Below the pieces are notes generated by a model that did not search any database, was not told where the DNA came from, and saw only the letters and a program-made list of their open reading frames with translations. From positions 1-43,577 of the forward strand of contig CAMBYP010000006.1 of NCBI GenBank assembly GCA_945872435.1: a DNA stretch of 43,577 nucleotides. The letters are read 5' to 3'. Positions 13,240-36,699 of the stretch are shown here, in pieces (the first letter of the stretch is position 1; each line of letters begins with the position of its first letter). The DNA comes from an uncultured Mycoplasmatota bacterium (lineage in GTDB: Bacteria; Bacillota_I; Bacilli_A; RF39; UBA660). Position numbers and translations under genes: made by a program.

Positions 13240-13265
13240 AAAAGTAAGATATATATCTTACTTTT
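13240..13265 (-). terminator. Terminator of spoIVB
   Basis: AAAAGTAAGATATATATCTTACTTTT inverted repeat. Confidence 0.7.
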
Positions 13266-14241
13266 CCGATTCTTCTAACATATTTGTAATAAATATCCCA
13301 TATCCTTTAGTCGGACTATCGACAACAACATGAGTAACAGCAGCGATTATTTTATTATTTTGCACAATTGGTGAACCACTCATACCAGCAACGACTCCCC
13401 CACTTTTTTCTAATAATTCAGTATCCGTAATCGTAAATAAAATATTTTTATTTTTTTCAGAATTATCACTTATTTTCAGTATTTCAATTTCATACTCTTT
13501 CACCTGTGTTCCTTCAATTACAGTAAACATGGAGGCTTTTCCTAATTGAATTTCATCTGGAGTTGCAACTGGATATAATTTCCTATTAGAAATTGTATCT
13601 GTATAATTTCCAAATATTCCTTCCTCTGTATTTGCAAATACATCTCCATTCACTTGCTCAGAATAAAATTTTGCATTCTTTTCCCCTGGAGAGCCAACTT
13701 CACTACGTACTATGTTTGTAACACTAGTATCGAAAATTTTACCATCTTTAATTTCTAATATTTTACCAGTCTCTTTTTCGATAATTTCATGACCTAACGC
13801 ACCAAACTTTTTGGTATTAGGATCGATAAAACTAAGTGTACCAATTCCTGTAATACTATCTTTTACATATAAACCTGTTTTGCAAATAGAGTCTTCTTTT
13901 TCAATTTTTAAATCGGTTGTTTTTTTATCTAAACCTCTTATATAAGTAACCTTAATACTTTCATCATTTTCATGCTCATGAATTACTTGAACCATATCAT
14001 TGATACTCATAATACTTTGATTATTAATCGCTACAATCATATCACCACTTTTTAATCCTGCTTCTTTGGCAGGATAACTATTCTTTACTTTATATGTTCC
14101 TATAATCATAACACCTTTTGAACGTAATTCAATTCCTATATTATCTCCACCAATATATACTTGATCTGAATAAGCCAGCGTATGTGTTGGTATAATAATA
14201 AATGTTAGAAGAAAAACCAATAAAAATTTTTTTAATTTCAT
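13258..14241 (-). CDS. spoIVB: SpoIVB peptidase (S55, PDZ-containing)
   Basis: Signal/TM, PDZ segment AGLKSGDMIVAINNQSI, GALGHEI, GSPGEKNAKF, GGVVAGMSGSPIVQNNKIIAAVTHV catalytic region. Confidence 0.94.
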   Translation of the reverse strand: MKLKKFLLVFLLTFIIIPTHTLAYSDQVYIGGDNIGIELRSKGVMIIGTYKVKNSYPAKEAGLKSGDMIVAINNQSIMSINDMVQVIHEHENDESIKVTYIRGLDKKTTDLKIEKEDSICKTGLYVKDSITGIGTLSFIDPNTKKFGALGHEIIEKETGKILEIKDGKIFDTSVTNIVRSEVGSPGEKNAKFYSEQVNGDVFANTEEGIFGNYTDTISNRKLYPVATPDEIQLGKASMFTVIEGTQVKEYEIEILKISDNSEKNKNILFTITDTELLEKSGGVVAGMSGSPIVQNNKIIAAVTHVVVDSPTKGYGIFITNMLEESEK

Positions 14242-22438: not shown

Positions 22439-24031
22439 TTAATTTTGAATACTGATTAAAGTAATTCTAGCATATCCATTGCCTTCATTTCCTAAGGTTT
22501 CAACACCTGTTCTTGCATTTGGCATAAGATGACCACCATCAATCATTTTCCCATTAGTAAAAACTTTGCCTGAAAAATGATTAGGGCTTCCACTTGCCGC
22601 ACCACTACTATTTACCGAATTACAACCCGTATAACCAGATATAAAGGATGATCCTCCACCAGCACCAGCATGCCATGCAGATCCACCACCGCCGTAGTAG
22701 CCTCCGCCGCCACCAGCACCAACATGGCTCGTATCACCAGGACCAACTCCCCCAGTTCCACCAATTCCAAATTTACCTGCTGATCCAGAAGTAGCACTGC
22801 TTCCAATTCTTCCTCCAGCTGTTTGTGTACCACCATAACCAACATAATCACCGGTTATTACTGACATATGAGCTGAACCAGTTCCACCTGTTAAAGTGCC
22901 ACCTACTCCACCTTGGGCATTTTCGGCATTAGAAGTAACTCCGCCACCACCAGCAGCGACCATAATACGATTCTTTAATCCTGTTACATCATTCCATGCT
23001 CCACCAGATAAGCGAACATCTGTCGCTCCTCCACCTTTTTTATTAGAAACAGAAGAAGATCCTCCACCATTAAAAGTAGAATTTTCCTGACCAACATAAA
23101 CATATAATTTTTCACCTTTATTTAATACAATATTCCCAGAAGTATAGGCTCCATTACCACCGCCTTCGGCATCTCCACTACCGCCTTCGGCACCCCATAA
23201 TTCAATTTGATAAGTTCCCTTATAAGGTGCTTGAAAAACTTGTGCGGAATTAACATAATCAAAATCATATGTTTTTTGTTTTACTGTTACATTTCTAGTT
23301 CTAGTATAAGTTTTACCGCTATAAGTAACTTTATAAGTCAAAGTATAAGTCCCCTCTGATTTACCAACAGTTCCTGAAACAGTAACACCATCTGTTCTTT
23401 GTGTTGAACTAGAATCTAACCAAAAATAACCCGGCTCTTGATATGGAGTATCAGTAGAAATCACCATATTTTGAGAACCTTTCAAATATAAAATATTATC
23501 TGAAGCATTACCAAAAACTAAATCATTAAAAGAGGTTTCATAACTATTATATTGATAAACAATATTAATTCCGTAATCTCCTTTCACTAATTTATGAGTA
23601 ATTGGTATTTTAATTTTAATGATAGAGTCATTTTTAATACCTCCACCTGTTGTAATTACTTGCTCATTCGATACATCGATCATTCCAAAATAACTACCTT
23701 CTAATAACTTTAAGGCAAAAATACCATATCTAAAATAATGATTTGTAGTATCTAAAGTCAATCTTTTTGTTGTCGCATCATCATAAAAGAAATCTAAACA
23801 ATTTTTACCACAATTTGTAGCTAAAACTAATTTTTTATTTTCTAAATCATCTTCTAATTCTCGAACCATTAATGCTTGTTTTTGTAAAAGTTCTGTTTTT
23901 AATCTAGAATCTACTGCTAAATTTTTTAAAGAATAAAGTAAATTAAATAGAAAATAGGCAACAATCATCGCTAGTGCGAAAGAAACCACTAACTCAACAA
24001 CCGTAAACCCTTTATTATTCTGTTTCAACAT
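22439..24031 (-). CDS. Prepilin-type N-terminal cleavage/methylation protein with Ig-like (DUF5011-like) module and C-terminal ALK-type glycine-rich domain
   Basis: MLKQNNKGFTVVELVVSFALAMIVAYFLF class III signal; VTVSGTVGKSEGTYTLTYKVTYSGKTYTRTRNVTVK; GTYQIELWGAEGGSG...GEKLYVYVGQENSTFNGGG...GGGATDVRL...RIMVAAGGGG...YGGTQTAGG...FGIGGTGG...GGGGGYYGGGGS. ATG preceded by GGAGG. Confidence 0.88.
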   Translation of the reverse strand: MLKQNNKGFTVVELVVSFALAMIVAYFLFNLLYSLKNLAVDSRLKTELLQKQALMVRELEDDLENKKLVLATNCGKNCLDFFYDDATTKRLTLDTTNHYFRYGIFALKLLEGSYFGMIDVSNEQVITTGGGIKNDSIIKIKIPITHKLVKGDYGINIVYQYNSYETSFNDLVFGNASDNILYLKGSQNMVISTDTPYQEPGYFWLDSSSTQRTDGVTVSGTVGKSEGTYTLTYKVTYSGKTYTRTRNVTVKQKTYDFDYVNSAQVFQAPYKGTYQIELWGAEGGSGDAEGGGNGAYTSGNIVLNKGEKLYVYVGQENSTFNGGGSSSVSNKKGGGATDVRLSGGAWNDVTGLKNRIMVAAGGGGVTSNAENAQGGVGGTLTGGTGSAHMSVITGDYVGYGGTQTAGGRIGSSATSGSAGKFGIGGTGGVGPGDTSHVGAGGGGGYYGGGGSAWHAGAGGGSSFISGYTGCNSVNSSGAASGSPNHFSGKVFTNGKMIDGGHLMPNARTGVETLGNEGNGYARITLISIQN

Positions 24032-24032
24032 A

Positions 24033-24596
24033 TTATATGCCTCCAAATCCAGTAACTTTTATTGATGCATAAGTACCATCTTTAAATTCTACTATCAGTC
24101 GATAACGATTGACATCTTTATCATATTTTATTTTTTTGATATAATCTCTAGTTTCACGATTAATATCAGTACCATTTTTAGAGTTATTCATATATGTAGT
24201 ACTATCTAAATAATGTAATAAAAAAGATAAATCTTCAAATGTAAAATAAACATGTTCAATATTTAAAATATCTTTTAAACGAGCACAATAATTTGGCTCA
24301 TCTAATAATTGTCCTGGACAAGTAGAAAGATCTAAATAATATTTTTTTTCACATCCTGATTGTCCTTCACATTCTTTTTTTAATGCATCAACAAGTGTAG
24401 CATAACTAGCCTCTTTAATATAAGTTGAAAAATTACTAGCTGCATACATTCCTGTAACAGTATTATATTTAAAACTATCATCAAATCCTTTTTTTATGGA
24501 ACGAAATTGAACAAATAGAAAAACCAGTGTCGTTAGAATAAACACTGATACTAATAACGTTTCTACCAAAATAAACCCCTTATTATTTTTTTGCAT
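24033..24596 (-). CDS. Minor prepilin (type IV pilin/pseudopilin-like)
   Basis: MQKNNKGFILVETLLVSVFILTTLVFLF class III signal peptide (G|F, E at mature +5). Confidence 0.85.
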   Translation of the reverse strand: MQKNNKGFILVETLLVSVFILTTLVFLFVQFRSIKKGFDDSFKYNTVTGMYAASNFSTYIKEASYATLVDALKKECEGQSGCEKKYYLDLSTCPGQLLDEPNYCARLKDILNIEHVYFTFEDLSFLLHYLDSTTYMNNSKNGTDINRETRDYIKKIKYDKDVNRYRLIVEFKDGTYASIKVTGFGGI

Positions 24597-24707
24597 AACA
24601 TAGCTCCTTTATTATTGTTATTTTTCTATTTCTATTATATAATATATTTAGGCTAAATGCTAGTCATTGAAATAAAAAAAGAATTGAAAAGAAATGAGGT
24701 TGACAAA

Positions 24708-26051
24708 ATGATACGTGTTTTTGATTTTCATAAAATGCCTATTGTTGATGTAGTAAATGAAATTTTATATGATTCAGCAAAAAGGGGTGCTTCTGATATA
24801 CACTTCGATCCCCGTAGCAATCACATGATTATTCGAATTCGTATTGACGGTTCACTAGAAGATTATGCAGATGTTCCACAAGACGTTGAGAAGAACTTAA
24901 CAACACGTGTAAAAATTATTGCTTCTATGAATATTACAGAATCTAGATTACCACAAGATGGAGCCATTAAAATAAAAATACGTGATTTAAATCTTGATTT
25001 GCGTGTGTCTAGTCTTCCTACAAACCATGGAGAAAAAGTTGTTATTCGTATTTTAGACTACAGCCGTAGTTTTAATGGATTAGAAGCTCTAGACTTTAGT
25101 GAAATAAATTATAAAAAAGTATTAGAAATGGTAAAAAGACCAAATGGAATTATTCTTGTAACCGGAGCTACTGGCAGTGGTAAATCAACTACATTATATT
25201 CTATCTTACAACGTTTGAATCAGCCAGATACAAATATTATTACTGTAGAAGATCCAGTAGAAATGGAAATTGAAGGAATTAACCAAGTACAAGTAAATTC
25301 AGAAATTGGGCTTACATTTGCTTCTGCATTGCGTTCTATTTTACGTCAAGACCCAAACATTATTATGATTGGGGAAATTCGTGATACGGAAACAGCACAA
25401 ATCGCAGTTCGTGCTTCTATCACAGGACATTTAGTATTATCGACTATTCACACCAATAACTCTTTAAATACTATTGAACGTCTAACAGATATGGGTGTAG
25501 AAAAATATTTACTTGCTTCTTCTTTGGAAGGAATCATATCTCAAAAATTAGCACGTCGTCTTTGCCCCAAATGTAAGAAGGAAAGACCTGCAAATGATTA
25601 TGAAAAAGAATTAATGAAAAAAACACTTGGTGTTGATATTGAAAAAACTTGGACAACCGTTGGATGTGATGAATGCCAAGGCGGTTATAAAGGACGTACA
25701 GCAATTCATGAAGTATTATTGATTAACCAAGAAATTCGTGATGCAATCAGTAATGGAATGAGAAAAGAAGATTTAAGAAAACTAGTTTATACTGGTACTA
25801 GCACATTACTTCAAGATGGATTAGAAAAAGCATTAAAGGGTGATACTACAATTGAAGAAATTTTAAAACTAATTGAACTTGATGTAGATGATATTAAAGA
25901 AGAAGGAGATCTTAACATTAAAGACTCTTTAGAGGAAATCAAAATTGCTAATGAAAGTAAAAAATCAAATCAATTAAATGAATTAAAAGAAAAAATTATT
26001 ATCAATAATTCTAAAGATAAACAAGAAATCGATGCAGAACCACTCTTTTAA
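24708..26051 (+). CDS. PilB/GspE/ComGA-family secretion ATPase
   Basis: LVTGATGSGKSTTLYSIL Walker A, GEIRDTETAQIAVRASITGHLVLSTIHTN, tetracysteine CPKC...CDEC. Start set at MIRVFDFHK. Confidence 0.93.
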   Translation: MIRVFDFHKMPIVDVVNEILYDSAKRGASDIHFDPRSNHMIIRIRIDGSLEDYADVPQDVEKNLTTRVKIIASMNITESRLPQDGAIKIKIRDLNLDLRVSSLPTNHGEKVVIRILDYSRSFNGLEALDFSEINYKKVLEMVKRPNGIILVTGATGSGKSTTLYSILQRLNQPDTNIITVEDPVEMEIEGINQVQVNSEIGLTFASALRSILRQDPNIIMIGEIRDTETAQIAVRASITGHLVLSTIHTNNSLNTIERLTDMGVEKYLLASSLEGIISQKLARRLCPKCKKERPANDYEKELMKKTLGVDIEKTWTTVGCDECQGGYKGRTAIHEVLLINQEIRDAISNGMRKEDLRKLVYTGTSTLLQDGLEKALKGDTTIEEILKLIELDVDDIKEEGDLNIKDSLEEIKIANESKKSNQLNELKEKIIINNSKDKQEIDAEPLF

Positions 26052-26056
26052 TTAAT

Positions 26057-26086
26057 AAAAAAAAGGAAGATTTCTTCCTTTTTTTA
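26057..26086. terminator. Bidirectional terminator between pilB-like and prepilin peptidase genes
   Basis: AAAAAGGAAGA-TT-TCTTCCTTTTT. Confidence 0.8.
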
Positions 26087-26848
26087 ATACATAATTAACA
26101 TATTTATCAATTGATCCCATGGAATATTTAAAAATAATAAAATAGCTGCACCTAAACATAAATAAGGGCCAAATGGAATAATATGTGTTTTCTTATACTG
26201 AAATAAAATTGATATTGGTAATCCAATAAGAGAACCCACAAAGATTGATAAAACTGCCATTGGGAATCCTAAAACAACTCCAAAGAAGAATAATAGTTTA
26301 ATATCTCCTCCACCCATAGATTCTTTTTTAAATAAATAATCACCAAATAACTTAATACCCCACATAAAGAAAAATGCACCAATGCCTTGTATGAAATGAG
26401 AAACAGCATAGCCAATCCCATAGGCTGGAATCTGTAATAACATAATACAGATTGTTCCAATTACTAACAATTCATCTGGAATAATCATATCTTCAATATC
26501 ACTAGATACAATCATAACTAAAAAAGAAATAAAGCAAATAGCGATTACAAATTGCCAACTCCATCCAAATATTATAAAACAAAGTGAAAAGCAAATACCC
26601 GTAATAAATTCACTAATTGGGTAATAAGGTGACAATTTTTTATGACACCATTTACACTTCCCTTTTTGTAATAAATAAGACAAAATTGGGATCAATTCTA
26701 AAGCTCCCAATTTATGCTTACAATAAGTACAATGACTACTTGGATATACAATAGACTCATTATGAGCAAGTCTAGAACCTACTACATTGAAAAATGAGCC
26801 AAAAATTGTTCCAAATATAAATAAACAAATAATATAATACCATTCCAT
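26084..26848 (-). CDS. Prepilin peptidase / N-methyltransferase (A24 family)
   Basis: GTIFGSFFNVVGSRLA, CTYCKHKL...CKWCHKKLSPYYPISEF, DIEDMIIPDELL, GGGDIKLLFFFG aspartyl motifs. Confidence 0.95.
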   Translation of the reverse strand: MEWYYIICLFIFGTIFGSFFNVVGSRLAHNESIVYPSSHCTYCKHKLGALELIPILSYLLQKGKCKWCHKKLSPYYPISEFITGICFSLCFIIFGWSWQFVIAICFISFLVMIVSSDIEDMIIPDELLVIGTICIMLLQIPAYGIGYAVSHFIQGIGAFFFMWGIKLFGDYLFKKESMGGGDIKLLFFFGVVLGFPMAVLSIFVGSLIGLPISILFQYKKTHIIPFGPYLCLGAAILLFLNIPWDQLINMLIMY

Positions 26849-26861
26849 ACTATCAACTCTT

Positions 26862-28604
26862 CTACATAACTGTGTCGTATAAAGTAAACATTGGAATAAC
26901 AATCGCAAGTATAATTACTCCAACAATACCTGTTAGCATAATAATCATTGCAGGCTCAATAAACGTTTTAATACGTGTAACTGCTTGTTTATGAAGTTCC
27001 TGATAATATGCAGAAACTTTTTTCATCATTTCTGGCAATTCACCAGTTTTTTCACCTGTTACCAACATCTCGTATGCTGGCACTGGAAATGCCCAATGAT
27101 TAGCAAATGCTGTAGATATTTTTTCACCACGTGATAAATTATCAATTGTATCATGTATTAACTCTTTATATATTTCATTATCAGTAATACGTTGTAATAT
27201 TTCCATACTATCAGTAATAAAGACATTATGTTCCATCAAACTAGATAATGTTTTAGTAAATGTAGTTACTTCATTATAAATTACAACATTACCAAAAATA
27301 GGTAAATGCATAACAAATGATTGTACATTTCTTTTAAATGGTTGAATATTTTTATAACAAAGATAAAATACAATAATCAATAAGATAATTACGATCATAA
27401 TCAAAATAAAATATTTTTTTAAGAAATCGGATAATGCCATAATAGCAAGTGTAATTCCTGGAATTTTAGTTGCATCCATGCTTTCAAAAATTTCAACAAA
27501 ACGAGGAACAATGAACAATAACATAAATGCAAAAACACCCATGGAAAGAACAAATACAATAGCTGGATACATCATTGCTGTAATCATTTGCTTACGAGTA
27601 CGATCCATTTCTGTATAATATTCTGCCATATCATCCAATACTTCTGGTAGTTCACCAGTCATCTCACTAGACTTTACCATATTTACAAGTAACCTAGGGA
27701 ATGCTTTTTGCTGTCTAGCAAGTGCATCACTAAATTCTAATCCAGTAGATAAATCATACAAAATTTCTTTAAATACACTATTATAACTTTTATTTTTCGC
27801 ATATTGACGAGCCAAAATATGTAATGCATCAATTAAAGTAATTCCTGCTTTCAAATAAGTAGATAATTGTGTTAAAAAGAAAATTAAGTCTTTCGTTTTT
27901 ATCTTTACGTGAGAACTACCCACATTTCCATGAAATAAACTAATCCAACGACTTGTTTTAATACTGTATACTTGATATCCTTCACTTAGTAAAAATGAGT
28001 GTACTTCAACTTTAGAAAAAGCATCCATATATCCTTTAATCATTTTTCCTTCAGGAGTACACGCCTCATACTCATACATAATTTTAACATCACTTTTTTC
28101 TGCATCTGCGCCATTATAATCGATCAACATTTCTTGTCGTTTTACATCACGCTGATTACGCATACTATGTAACAATGGTGAGTTTTCAATAATATTTTTA
28201 AAACGTTCTATTAAAGAAAATTTCTTTTCTTTTTTCTTTTTTACTCCTAAAGTTTGTTCTCTTAATTCTTTTTTTGCTTGTTCTATTTTTTGGACACTGA
28301 CAGATTTTGCAGCATTAATTAATTCCTGTTCTTCTCTTTTTGCAGCACGAGCTTTTTCTTCTCGTTTAGCCTCTACTTTTCTTAAATATGGTCTGAATAA
28401 GTGACGAACAGATTCAAGCCCAATTTGAATCCAAATAATAAATGCTAAAACCCCGGTCCACGCATATGCTGGAATTCTAATAAATATCAATTCAAAGATC
28501 AAATATAAAATATAACAAATAGTTACTAAACCTATTAAGATATAATGTACAAAATGATACATCATAACACATGGCCATAAAAAAATTGAACTCCAATTTT
28601 TCAT
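26862..28604 (-). CDS. PilC/GspF/ComGB-family inner-membrane platform protein with long N-terminal extension
   Basis: Duplicated GspF domains (FLTQLSTYLKAGITLIDALHIL; FTKTLSSLMEHNVFITDSMEIL), GELPEVLDDMAEYY and GELPEMMKKVSAYY; about 175 extra N-terminal residues. Confidence 0.92.
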   Translation of the reverse strand: MKNWSSIFLWPCVMMYHFVHYILIGLVTICYILYLIFELIFIRIPAYAWTGVLAFIIWIQIGLESVRHLFRPYLRKVEAKREEKARAAKREEQELINAAKSVSVQKIEQAKKELREQTLGVKKKKEKKFSLIERFKNIIENSPLLHSMRNQRDVKRQEMLIDYNGADAEKSDVKIMYEYEACTPEGKMIKGYMDAFSKVEVHSFLLSEGYQVYSIKTSRWISLFHGNVGSSHVKIKTKDLIFFLTQLSTYLKAGITLIDALHILARQYAKNKSYNSVFKEILYDLSTGLEFSDALARQQKAFPRLLVNMVKSSEMTGELPEVLDDMAEYYTEMDRTRKQMITAMMYPAIVFVLSMGVFAFMLLFIVPRFVEIFESMDATKIPGITLAIMALSDFLKKYFILIMIVIILLIIVFYLCYKNIQPFKRNVQSFVMHLPIFGNVVIYNEVTTFTKTLSSLMEHNVFITDSMEILQRITDNEIYKELIHDTIDNLSRGEKISTAFANHWAFPVPAYEMLVTGEKTGELPEMMKKVSAYYQELHKQAVTRIKTFIEPAMIIMLTGIVGVIILAIVIPMFTLYDTVM

Positions 28605-32846: not shown

Positions 32847-34889
32847 TTATGTATTTTTAGAAGAATATGTAGTTAACAAATATTGATTATACCGAAAAGT
32901 GACTTTAATATTACCTACTAAATCAGTACGATATATTTGACAAGTATTTAAATTGTTTAACACCTTATTATCAGGATGACCATATCGATTATTTTTTCCA
33001 ACGGATATGAAACAAATTTTTGGATTTACTGTCGAAATAAATGATTTACTACTACTTGTCTTACTGCCGTGATGTCCTATTTTTAAAAAGTCTATCTGAT
33101 TAAAATGATACATTGTTAACAAATCTTTTTCTTTATTTATTCCTGCATCTCCCATGAATAAAAACTGAAATGCTTTATTACGAAAATATATTACATTAGA
33201 ATTATCATTTTCATTATCATAAATTTTTGTATTTAAAAAATTTAATTTCATTTGTCCAAAATTTAAATATTCAACATTTTGATAATATGGAATATTTTTC
33301 TTTTTTAATTTTTTAATAAGCCTTGATTCTAACTCATTATAATCACCAACATTAAAAATCACGTTTTCTATTTTAAATTTTTCAATTAAAGTAATTGCGT
33401 CCCCCATATGATCATAATCACCATGAGTGAGAATTAAAAAATCTATTTTAGTAATTCCTGATGCTTTTAAATATGGAATAATCACTTGTTCACCTGTACT
33501 TAAACTTTTTCTTTTCTGCCATTTTTGTTCACGATAAGTTACAATACCACCCGTATCAATTAATGCTACTGTTTCACCTTTTAAAAGCAAGCTATCGCCT
33601 TGTCCTACATCAAATATCACAAGTTCATCAGGAGAAAAATAAACGCTAATTTTTAATACACACAAAATAGTTATCAATAAAAACCATTGATATTTATAAT
33701 TTCTGACAAAATAAAAACAATACCCATACACGAAATAAAACCATAAAGATGGTTTCTTAAAAATAACAGGATTGAATAAATTGGAAACTATAAAATCATT
33801 CATAACCTCTAATCCCTTTAAAATTATAGAATAAATAATATACATATCAGGGAGCAATATAACTACAAAAGAAAGTGGAAATAATAATTGACTAATCAAT
33901 GGAACATATACCAAATTCCATAAAATACTAGTAAATTGAAGTTCATAGCTATAACATAAAGTAATAGGAATGCTAGCAAAAAAACTAATAGTAGAAATCA
34001 AAATCATTTGCCGAAACAAACTTTTTTTCTTTAACTTTTCCGCATACAACACCAAAGCATCACTTACAATAAAACTATATAAAAATCCAATATCATAAAT
34101 TCGATATGGGTTCATACATAACAAAATTAAAAACATCAAAATATAAAATTCATGTATTGTCAAAAAAGAATGAATTGGTTTAAACATAGAAAATATTAAG
34201 CTACTTAAAACACGAATAATAGAAATAGAAAATCCAAGAATCCAACCGTAAAATAACATAAATGGTAAAGCAATTAACTTCGCTCTATCTTTCTTTTTAA
34301 AAAGAAGAAAGAAAAACGATAAAAAAAATGAAAAATGCATACCTGAGATGCAAAATAAATGGCTAACTCCTAATTTGCGATATACTTCATCATTATAATT
34401 TCTTTTATTTCCTAATAAAAACAAACTAAGATAAATATCATTCTTATCAATATGATATATTCTTCTTTGAATTCCGTTTTTAATCAGTGATTTTAAACTC
34501 TTTCTTGATTGCAAGCTTTTAAGCTTAGAAATATTTAATTGCCAATCAATGTTTTGGCTTTTTAAATAATTGCGATATGAAAACTGATGAAAATTAGTAT
34601 TTGAACTAGGTCTTGTAATTTCTCCTATAAAAGATATTTTCATATCATACTCTAAATTTTTTTCTAACCATTTCTTTTCTTCTAAGTTGTTAATTTGATA
34701 ATAACCTACATATAATAATTTATTTTTTAATTCCAATTTTAATAAATCTCCCTTTAATTCATAGTCGATTATAATTGCTTCTGATATATTTTTTGGTTTC
34801 ACAACTGCATCATGTTTGATTCCATCGAAAACAATATAAATTGTAATGAAACAAATACTACATAGTAAGATAGTCTTTAATCTTTTCAA
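32847..34889 (-). CDS. comEC: ComEC/Rec2 competence channel protein
   Basis: Competence domain (LGVSHLFCISGMHFSFFL) and metallo-beta-lactamase-like domain (DVGQGDSLLLKG, LTHGDYDHMGD, KIGHHGSKTSSS). Probable TTG start after GGAG; the ORF track begins at GTG 34910. Confidence 0.93.
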   Translation of the reverse strand: MKRLKTILLCSICFITIYIVFDGIKHDAVVKPKNISEAIIIDYELKGDLLKLELKNKLLYVGYYQINNLEEKKWLEKNLEYDMKISFIGEITRPSSNTNFHQFSYRNYLKSQNIDWQLNISKLKSLQSRKSLKSLIKNGIQRRIYHIDKNDIYLSLFLLGNKRNYNDEVYRKLGVSHLFCISGMHFSFFLSFFFLLFKKKDRAKLIALPFMLFYGWILGFSISIIRVLSSLIFSMFKPIHSFLTIHEFYILMFLILLCMNPYRIYDIGFLYSFIVSDALVLYAEKLKKKSLFRQMILISTISFFASIPITLCYSYELQFTSILWNLVYVPLISQLLFPLSFVVILLPDMYIIYSIILKGLEVMNDFIVSNLFNPVIFKKPSLWFYFVYGYCFYFVRNYKYQWFLLITILCVLKISVYFSPDELVIFDVGQGDSLLLKGETVALIDTGGIVTYREQKWQKRKSLSTGEQVIIPYLKASGITKIDFLILTHGDYDHMGDAITLIEKFKIENVIFNVGDYNELESRLIKKLKKKNIPYYQNVEYLNFGQMKLNFLNTKIYDNENDNSNVIYFRNKAFQFLFMGDAGINKEKDLLTMYHFNQIDFLKIGHHGSKTSSSKSFISTVNPKICFISVGKNNRYGHPDNKVLNNLNTCQIYRTDLVGNIKVTFRYNQYLLTTYSSKNT

Positions 34890-35496
34890 AAGTACTATCT
34901 CCAATACCACTTACTTTTTTCAAATCTTCAATACTCTGAAAACCATTTTTTTCACGATATTCAATAATTGCTGTCGCTTTTGTCTCACCAATACCAGGAA
35001 GTAACATCCATTCCTCTTTCGTTGCAGTTAAAATAGAAATGACATGAGGTTCACTTGATTTTTCTGGTTCTTCTTTTTGGTTAGTTACAGTATTTTCTTT
35101 TTCTAAACAACCATCATTTTTAATTTCAGGGCAAACACAAGTCTCAATAGGAAGTTGCATAGAATTTCCATTTTCAAAATTTTTTATTTGCTCTTTCGTA
35201 TAAATAATAATCACCATTTCATCTTGTAATTTTTTACTTAAATTTAAATAATTAGTATCAGCAGTTTCCAATAAACCTCCTGCTTTCGTAATCGCATCTT
35301 GAACATTACCTTTTTGAAATTGATACACGCCTGGATTTAATACCGCTCCTTTTATATCAATGGAAAATAGTTCTGTTTCATTCTTTTCTTTTGTATTTCC
35401 TACATCTTTTTGTAATGAAATTGTTTCAGTACTCTTAGAACAAGAAATTAAAAAAATACAGAAAAAACATAATAATAAAACTTTTTTCATATTCAC
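34858..35496 (-). CDS. comEA: ComEA-like DNA receptor (lipoprotein form): SLBB plus helix-hairpin-helix
   Basis: Lipobox LISC; IDIKGAVLNPGVYQFQKGNVQDAITKAGG SLBB; LLPGIGETKATAIIEYREKNGFQSIEDLKKVSGIGDSTFEKIKDYL HhH pair. Confidence 0.92.
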   Translation of the reverse strand: MNMKKVLLLCFFCIFLISCSKSTETISLQKDVGNTKEKNETELFSIDIKGAVLNPGVYQFQKGNVQDAITKAGGLLETADTNYLNLSKKLQDEMVIIIYTKEQIKNFENGNSMQLPIETCVCPEIKNDGCLEKENTVTNQKEEPEKSSEPHVISILTATKEEWMLLPGIGETKATAIIEYREKNGFQSIEDLKKVSGIGDSTFEKIKDYLTM

Positions 35497-35535: not shown

Positions 35536-36699
35536 CTATCTCATAGTTGGGATTTTAATTTTTTCTCTTTTTGTTTCAACACTAATTCTTTGTACCATAG
35601 CAAGTGCAACCATTAAAGAAATGGTAAAAGATCCTCCATATGATAAAAATGGTAATGGAACACCTGTTAATGGTATCATTGCAAATAAACCGCCAAGATT
35701 TAAGAATATATGCATAAATATATATACTGCTACTCCAAAGCATATATATCTACCACGTACTGTATTTGCTTTACCTGCTAAATTCAAAATACGATAAAGA
35801 ATAACAATATATAGTAAAAATACAAAACTACATTTAATAAAGCCTTCTTCTTCAGCAATAATTGCAAACACACTATCGGTATGGGGTTCTGGAATATAAG
35901 AGTATTTTTGTTTACTTTTCCCTGCGCCTAATCCCATTAACCCACCATCGTTAATTGCAATAATCCCATTACAAATTTGATACCCACCAGTTTCATACTT
36001 ACTACATGGATTGAAAAAATCAAAACGACTTTTTTGAGCATCAGACAAAATGTGACCAGATACTGATACTTTTACTACTAAAACTAAAATAATTGATACA
36101 AAAACAAAAGTAAAAGTTTGTATTTTTTCTGACCGTAAAACAGGACTTAATGCAAACATGCTAGCAAAAATAGTAAATAAAATAAACATAGTTCCTAAAT
36201 CCTTTTGCATAAATACAATAAATGGAATTAAAGAACCAACAATAACAATAATTCCAATCATATTCCAATGTGAATATTTTTTACTACGTAAACAATAATA
36301 AAATTTTTCAAACAATAATGCTAAACAAACAATTAACACCGGTTTTGCAAGCTCACTTGGTTGAAATTGCATAAACCCTAAATTAATCCAGTTACGACTA
36401 CCACGGTGATCCGTTCCATACATACTTAAATAAGCAAGTAACAAAACAACTACTACATACCCTAAAATAGCCCATGGTTTATATTTATTTGTTTTAATAT
36501 TTAAAACAAATAACGTAGCTACAAAGCCAATTCCTAGCATCGCTAAATGACGATAAAAATAGTGATACAAAGTTCTTGCAGAAGTAATTGCCTCACTACT
36601 AGAAGCAGTAACAATATTTAAAAGGCCAAACACAAATAAAAAAATAGTTGCAAACAAAAGAGGTTTATCCATATCAGAAATAAAACGCTTTAATTTCAT
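35536..36699 (-). CDS. ftsW: FtsW/RodA/SpoVE-family SEDS glycosyltransferase
   Basis: SRNWINLGFMQFQPSELAKP, AINDGGLMGLGAGKSKQKYSYIPEPHTDSVFAIIAEEEGFI, PLTGVPLPFLSYGGS. Exact paralogue uncertain. Confidence 0.9.
   Translation of the reverse strand: MKLKRFISDMDKPLLFATIFLFVFGLLNIVTASSSEAITSARTLYHYFYRHLAMLGIGFVATLFVLNIKTNKYKPWAILGYVVVVLLLAYLSMYGTDHRGSRNWINLGFMQFQPSELAKPVLIVCLALLFEKFYYCLRSKKYSHWNMIGIIVIVGSLIPFIVFMQKDLGTMFILFTIFASMFALSPVLRSEKIQTFTFVFVSIILVLVVKVSVSGHILSDAQKSRFDFFNPCSKYETGGYQICNGIIAINDGGLMGLGAGKSKQKYSYIPEPHTDSVFAIIAEEEGFIKCSFVFLLYIVILYRILNLAGKANTVRGRYICFGVAVYIFMHIFLNLGGLFAMIPLTGVPLPFLSYGGSFTISLMVALAMVQRISVETKREKIKIPTMR

Follow-up and report, generated by a model that had tools for sequence, protein, structure and literature searches.

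A modular minor prepilin with an ALK/LTK-type glycine-rich domain, a probable type IV pilus tip adhesin in an uncultured Bacilli lineage

What is a domain best known from animal receptors doing on a bacterial pilin? The question is raised by one gene in a 43,577-nucleotide stretch of DNA (the window; contig CAMBYP010000006.1 of assembly GCA_945872435.1, from an uncultured Mycoplasmatota bacterium of the GTDB lineage RF39; UBA660). The gene, at 22439..24031 on the minus strand, encodes a modular minor prepilin of 530 amino acids (aa), here called the slot pilin, in which a pilin head is followed by an immunoglobulin (Ig)-like module and an ALK/LTK-type glycine-rich domain (GRD). We put the probability at roughly 0.62 that the slot pilin is a modular type IV pilus tip adhesin and that its exchangeable GRD loops set the ligand specificity, with both the tip position and the ligand being predictions.

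The gene begins with an ATG at 24031, and its stop codon ends at 22439. A GGAGG lies 9 nt 5' of the ATG, and a second, less convincing start codon, TTG, is found at 24046. The first eight residues (MLKQNNKG; 24008..24031, minus strand like all parts of the gene) form a class III leader peptide, and the predicted cleavage before FTVVE has the expected G-1, F+1 and E+5, followed by a hydrophobic helix. The N_methyl profile (PF07963) scores 21.1 bits on the whole protein, against a cut-off of 21.2, 23.0 bits when the head is scanned alone and 25.9 bits in the genome search. The pilin alpha-1 helix (aa 9-65; 23837..24007; helix 11-65 in the AlphaFold2 model) leads into a beta head (aa 66-175; 23507..23836), which carries a CGxxC pair and is the chassis conserved across the family. 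The two cysteines (window 23798-23812, aa 74-78) are kept in many slot-pilin heads (alignment A5) and may form a disulfide. A profile search of the PDB with the head matched N-terminal helices only (geopilin, PilE1), so that the head may be of class I/J/K or of ComG type. The gene is intact, in separate assemblies, in four further genomes of the genus (65-79% identity) and in more distant relatives, and all of its domains are under purifying selection, with a ratio of nonsynonymous to synonymous substitution rates (dN/dS) of 0.04-0.2 outside the loops.

Two domains are grafted onto this pilin, as in other modular pilins. The Ig-like module (aa 183-250; 23282..23485) matches the Pfam family PF16403, Bact_surface_Ig-like (E 1.1e-11), which we take to be the former DUF5011, and a profile search of PDB sequences matches it to the Bacteroides lipoprotein BT_2262 (5fq3). 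The GRD (aa 258-530; 22442..23260) has a tumour necrosis factor (TNF)-like scaffold with glycine loops. Its aa 271-526 match PF12810, ALK_LTK_GRD, at E 2.2e-40, covering profile positions 7-243 of 243, and the score of 139.6 bits is far above the cut-off of 24.5. AlphaFold2 modelled the whole protein from an 18-sequence alignment at a mean predicted local distance difference test score (pLDDT) of 82, with a helix, a beta head, an Ig domain and a beta-rich GRD; the GRD alone, from 16 sequences, was modelled at pLDDT 92.9 and a predicted template modelling score of 0.92. All 21 PDB structures that this model matches at E < 1e-3 are GRDs of ALK, LTK or Caenorhabditis elegans SCD-2, and the next match is a weak one, the fibre of cyanophage Pam3 (E 0.08). 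The ALK/LTK-type receptors also come up, at E about 1e-7, when PDB sequences are searched by profile. Among the predicted viral structures in BFVD, the GRD matches phage proteins, with E down to 1.4e-17 and template modelling (TM) scores up to 0.75. The family of the modelled GRD fold is clear, though the model superposes only loosely on the solved GRDs (TM 0.36-0.47). The profile scores and the structure exclude a chance resemblance. The epidermal growth factor (EGF)-like, transmembrane and kinase domains of the ALK/LTK receptors gave no Pfam matches in the 530-aa protein.

These results bear out the initial annotation, made from the letters alone, which had read a prepilin, a DUF5011/HYR-like Ig module and an ALK/LTK-type glycine-rich domain in a single ORF. 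PF07963, PF16403 and PF12810 recover each part, and the coordinates were exact. The initial annotation had also proposed looking for similar fusions elsewhere and had raised a frameshift fusion of two genes. Homologues with the same architecture are numerous, a pilin joined to a GRD being present in at least 19 relatives, and the check for a fusion found one gene, intact in other genomes. The third check, a model of the fold, gave a confident GRD that matched ALK/LTK-type GRDs alone in the PDB at E < 1e-3, so that none of the refuting conditions set by the initial annotation came true. The polyglycine-II helices and the rigid tip that it proposed are predictions.

How the slot pilin is used can be approached through its relatives, which we took from whole genomes and genome contigs of uncultured Bacilli, Mycoplasmatota, Tenericutes and others, mostly metagenome assembled; several of the record titles name gut sites or animals. 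Gene order around the pilin is conserved as RpoD, YqfQ, PilC, PilD, PilB (divergent), pil2, slot pilin, Gate protein, PDZ protease and MutS, with PilB present in 37 of 48 related loci. The slot pilins have the pilin head in common (alignment A5), and the C-terminal part differs. Members of the genus and six other loci (L056-L059, L061 and L062; the numbers are our own locus labels) carry Ig plus GRD, L066 has GRD plus LamG, L063 Ig plus FISUMP (Fib_succ_major), L070 LamG, L068 DUF285, L072-L074 fn3, and L012 and L013 Ig only, while L064, L082, L084 and L092 have modules not assigned to a family. In L060 (5998-7236), a natural deletion has removed most of the glycine loops of the GRD and left both scaffold ends. 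For L072-L074 and L084 the head is present with no PilB within the available stretch, so that synteny is only partly shown. Modules also occur on the neighbouring prepilin, pil2. It bears the GRD in place of the slot pilin in L014 and L119 (matches to the pil2 profile at E 3.5e-17 and 1.1e-13, respectively), and in L077 it carries ricin-B, in L081 DUF6273 and in L089 DUF285 plus LamG. When the module state of the slot is mapped on a tree of PilB, at least 10 changes are needed in 32 loci, for example between the sisters L068 (DUF285) and L070 (LamG). That tree lost L052, L054, L077, L087 and L089 through the cutting of reading frames, which could lower the count of changes and could not raise it.

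A second kind of exchange is visible inside the GRD. Among five species of the genus, the variable and mosaic parts are loop 1 (aa 313-332; 23036..23095), where species differ by a 15-residue indel, and the central glycine loops (aa 359-470; 22622..22957). By flanking DNA, L052 and L054 are sisters, with about 91% and 89% identity to each other against 83-86% to L053. The two are 96% identical over the pilin head and Ig module and 90-92% identical at either end of the GRD, but identity drops to 48-57% in the glycine loops, where that indel also separates them. Loop sequences pair the window with L052, and L053 with L054; the flanking genes follow the head. The head and Ig module reject the loop topology (approximately unbiased [AU] test, p 0.005-0.012 on DNA and about 0.001 on protein), and in the converse test the loop data reject the species topology (p<0.001; log-likelihoods at least 60 apart). 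Between L052 and L054, dN is 0.024 in the heads, 0.061 at the GRD edges and 0.45 in the loops, with dS roughly similar; within one loop type, the loops are constrained (dN/dS 0.2-0.3). As judged from these sequences, the mosaic is explained by replacement of the loops as a block or by retention of old types in several species, and not easily by plain drift.

Taken as a tip adhesin, the slot pilin could work as follows. Once PilD had removed the leader peptide, the head would enter the filament, most likely at its tip as part of a minor-pilin complex that includes pil2. As a spacer, the Ig module would hold the GRD beyond the filament. The TNF-like sandwich would then be the conserved scaffold and the glycine-supported loops the surface that contacts the ligand, perhaps gut mucin or a glycan, or another cell. 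Specificity could shift by two routes, the swapping of whole effector modules on the conserved pilin chassis and the replacement or quick divergence of GRD loops between related species. We prefer this reading because the pattern of conserved scaffold and variable loops fits the mode proposed for phage Pam3, and because the order of domains is like that of Streptococcus sanguinis PilC. The initial annotation had already suggested a ligand-binding module on a type IV filament, and that suggestion is strengthened by the swapping of modules in a fixed minor-pilin slot and by the mosaic loops.

Several observations weigh against the adhesin reading. The GRD superposes only loosely on those of ALK and LTK (TM 0.36-0.47, root-mean-square deviation 8-13 angstrom). 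Many relatives have no module at all in the slot. The borders of the loop block were picked after the alignment had been seen, and neutral drift of a fast-evolving glycine-rich sequence could be the source of the loop variation. For every member of the family, binding and localisation are what we infer. Finally, the same contig carries the gene of a ComEC DNA-uptake channel (32847..34910, minus strand) and that of a ComEA-like helix-hairpin-helix protein (34858..35496, minus strand; read by eye from the translation), and no PilT-like retraction ATPase was found in the 94%-complete genome, as in Com systems.

These last points belong to the main rival, in which the filament is primarily a Com-type DNA-uptake pilus with the slot pilin as its cap, and the GRD has an accessory part in contacting DNA or the biofilm matrix. 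Both pilin heads also have a weak similarity to ComGE/ComGF. However, the NCBIfam cut-offs for these families are clearly missed (18.3 against 49 bits and 14.4 against 80 bits), and we rejected a Com identity for the two pilins. Com pili bind DNA through small, unmodified minor pilins (PMC12153270), and the lectin-like LamG and ricin-B modules that swap with the GRD suit the recognition of a ligand better than that of DNA. We regard DNA uptake as unlikely, though it is the strongest of the competing explanations.

A further alternative places the selective pressure with phages or neighbouring cells: the tip would be a phage receptor or an inter-bacterial recognition device, and the loops would vary to escape or to match a partner. 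The same GRD is common among phage proteins, and the loops do show exchange with mosaic borders. However, none of the phage GRDs stands beside those of the genus in the GRD tree, and binding of phages to the pilus is conjecture; we consider this explanation improbable. We give as little credence to a purely structural GRD, a stiff cap or spacer that binds no ligand and whose loops vary neutrally. Glycine-rich repeats do drift easily, and L060 keeps its scaffold ends after losing most of its glycine loops. However, the constraint on loops of one type, their replacement as a block contrary to the species tree and the presence of known binding domains among the other slot occupants all speak against it. 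Host mimicry, in which the GRD would bind ALKAL-type cytokines or host partners as ALK and LTK do, draws on the common domain family, but identity is about 20%, the domain is also widespread among phages, which never encounter an animal host protein, and the scaffold is the conserved part and the loops the variable one, so that we think it very improbable. Least credible of all is an error of sequencing or assembly that joined two genes: nothing counts in its favour, and the intact ORF with conserved flanks recurs in about 12 separate assemblies, which rules out a frameshift fusion.

How far does the adhesin reading extend beyond this genus? Within the family, 67 of 147 genomes encode PF12810, with up to 20 copies in one of them, whereas a phylum sample of 396 genomes yields only 9, of which 7 belong to the same family. 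About half of the GRD proteins with a readable N-terminus start with a class III prepilin signal, in a sample that favours ORFs below about 1000 aa, was partly fetched with the pilin as query and includes nine proteins from one array; for comparison, whole genomes of this kind have roughly 15-17 prepilins each. About 15 more GRD proteins (L021, L108, L112, L146 and others) start with KGFAxxxxLYxxL, like a prepilin without Glu5. In a tree of 112 GRDs, whose deep branches have weak support, a single origin of the slot GRDs is rejected (p-AU 0.0144; 8 changes), and the GRD therefore entered the slot, or was replaced there, several times. A mobile origin was considered and set aside, with no matches in annotated phages and one weak plasmid match, to a Clostridium glycine-rich protein. 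It is tempting to see in all this a diversification of pilus tips in a gut Bacilli lineage, in which a fixed minor-pilin slot takes varied modules and the commonest of them, the GRD with its kinship to phage tail-fibre tips, shifts specificity by exchange of loops between species, perhaps also with GRD genes elsewhere in related genomes or in phages. We offer this wider scenario tentatively, as a possibility with less than even odds.

Other GRD proteins were noted along the way. One locus (L129; G146:C3:966000-983000) has nine tandem GRD-bearing prepilins in 17 kb, with a major-pilin-like N-terminus (GFTLVELLAV), and may be a reservoir of tip variants. GRD proteins occur on phage contigs (L169-L180) as well as among the BFVD matches, and many phage GRD proteins are called 'receptor protein-tyrosine kinase' in UniProt, apparently from the GRD alone.

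The surroundings of the slot pilin fit a pilus gene. Directly upstream, and probably co-translated, is the second minor prepilin, pil2 (24033..24596, minus strand), itself modular in some relatives. The cognate assembly machinery adjoins the pair: a divergent PilB/GspE-type extension ATPase (24657..26051, plus strand; PF00437, 1.4e-130), the prepilin peptidase PilD (26084..26848, minus strand; PF06750, PF01478) and the platform protein PilC/GspF (26862..28604, minus strand; PF00482). The neighbours are housekeeping and pilus genes, with neither the virion context nor the fibre chaperone of phage tail fibres among them, and Rfam had no match anywhere in the window. The genome (1.07 Mb, 94% complete) encodes about 15 N_methyl prepilins above the cut-off, and its sole GRD is that of the slot pilin. 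Three tandem, very similar small prepilins (L034/L035/L040; G000:C39:7344-8337) are candidate major pilins, and two large ones (L036, G000:C37; L039, G000:C5) have C-terminal parts that by eye resemble leucine-rich/BspA-type repeats. A frameshift in an A-rich stretch divides another prepilin (L038; G000:C1 near 59662) into 78 aa and then a 355-aa frame, which may reflect phase variation, a pseudogene or an error. Two further secretion-ATPase loci, L182 (G000:C31) and L183 (G000:C11), look like Tad systems. A SpoIVB-like PDZ protease (13258-14241) and a RodA/FtsW-like protein (35536-36699), both read by eye, suggest a walled and possibly sporulating cell.

Modular pilins as such are already known, 264 architectures having been listed in 2021 (Raynaud et al., PMC8179133). 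The GRD is absent among the frequent architectures discussed there, though the full listing may include one, and we found no link between PF12810 and pilins in the literature searched. As far as that literature shows, what is new is that a pilin carries a GRD, that modules are exchanged both within a single syntenic slot and between two adjacent pilins, and that the loops are mosaic. The slot pilin resembles S. sanguinis PilB and the modular pilins that Raynaud et al. describe in being a class III prepilin onto which a putatively functional domain has been grafted; what sets it apart is that modules are exchanged in a fixed, syntenic slot. S. sanguinis PilB and PilC are modular minor pilins, modelled in a tip complex with a small pilin, that bind host proteins and glycans (PMC8179133, PMC9934059), and PilC consists of a pilin, then an Ig-like and then a ConA-like lectin domain (PMC9934059). 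The likeness to PilC includes a short pilin moiety, an Ig-like domain, a binding module (predicted here), a small minor-pilin partner and a monoderm cell. PilC, in contrast, ends in a ConA-like lectin instead of an ALK/LTK-type GRD and comes from another lineage.

Outside pili, the nearest relatives by profile, and the only PDB fold matches at E < 1e-3, are the GRDs of ALK, LTK and SCD-2 (PF12810; 7LRZ, 7NX1, 7LIR), but the slot pilin is bacterial, borne on a pilin, without a kinase, EGF-like or transmembrane part, and only loosely superposable. The phage tail-fibre GRDs (Pam3 gp24, 7YPX; BFVD) share the TNF-like, glycine-rich fold predicted for the slot pilin and have variable distal loops; Pam3 gp24 keeps a conserved glycine stem, with the variable distal loops as the proposed receptor binders (PMC9608196). 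These fibres are trimers carried on virions and made with a chaperone, whereas the slot pilin has its GRD as a module on a pilin, and the Pam3 match in the PDB is weak. An ALK/LTK-type GRD, known from animal receptors and phage tips, is now found on a predicted bacterial pilus, which suggests that the ancestral job of the domain was to be a scaffold for variable recognition loops. With one chassis, one locus and many tips, these relatives form a natural series in which the function of modular pilins and the evolution of pilus specificity can be tested.
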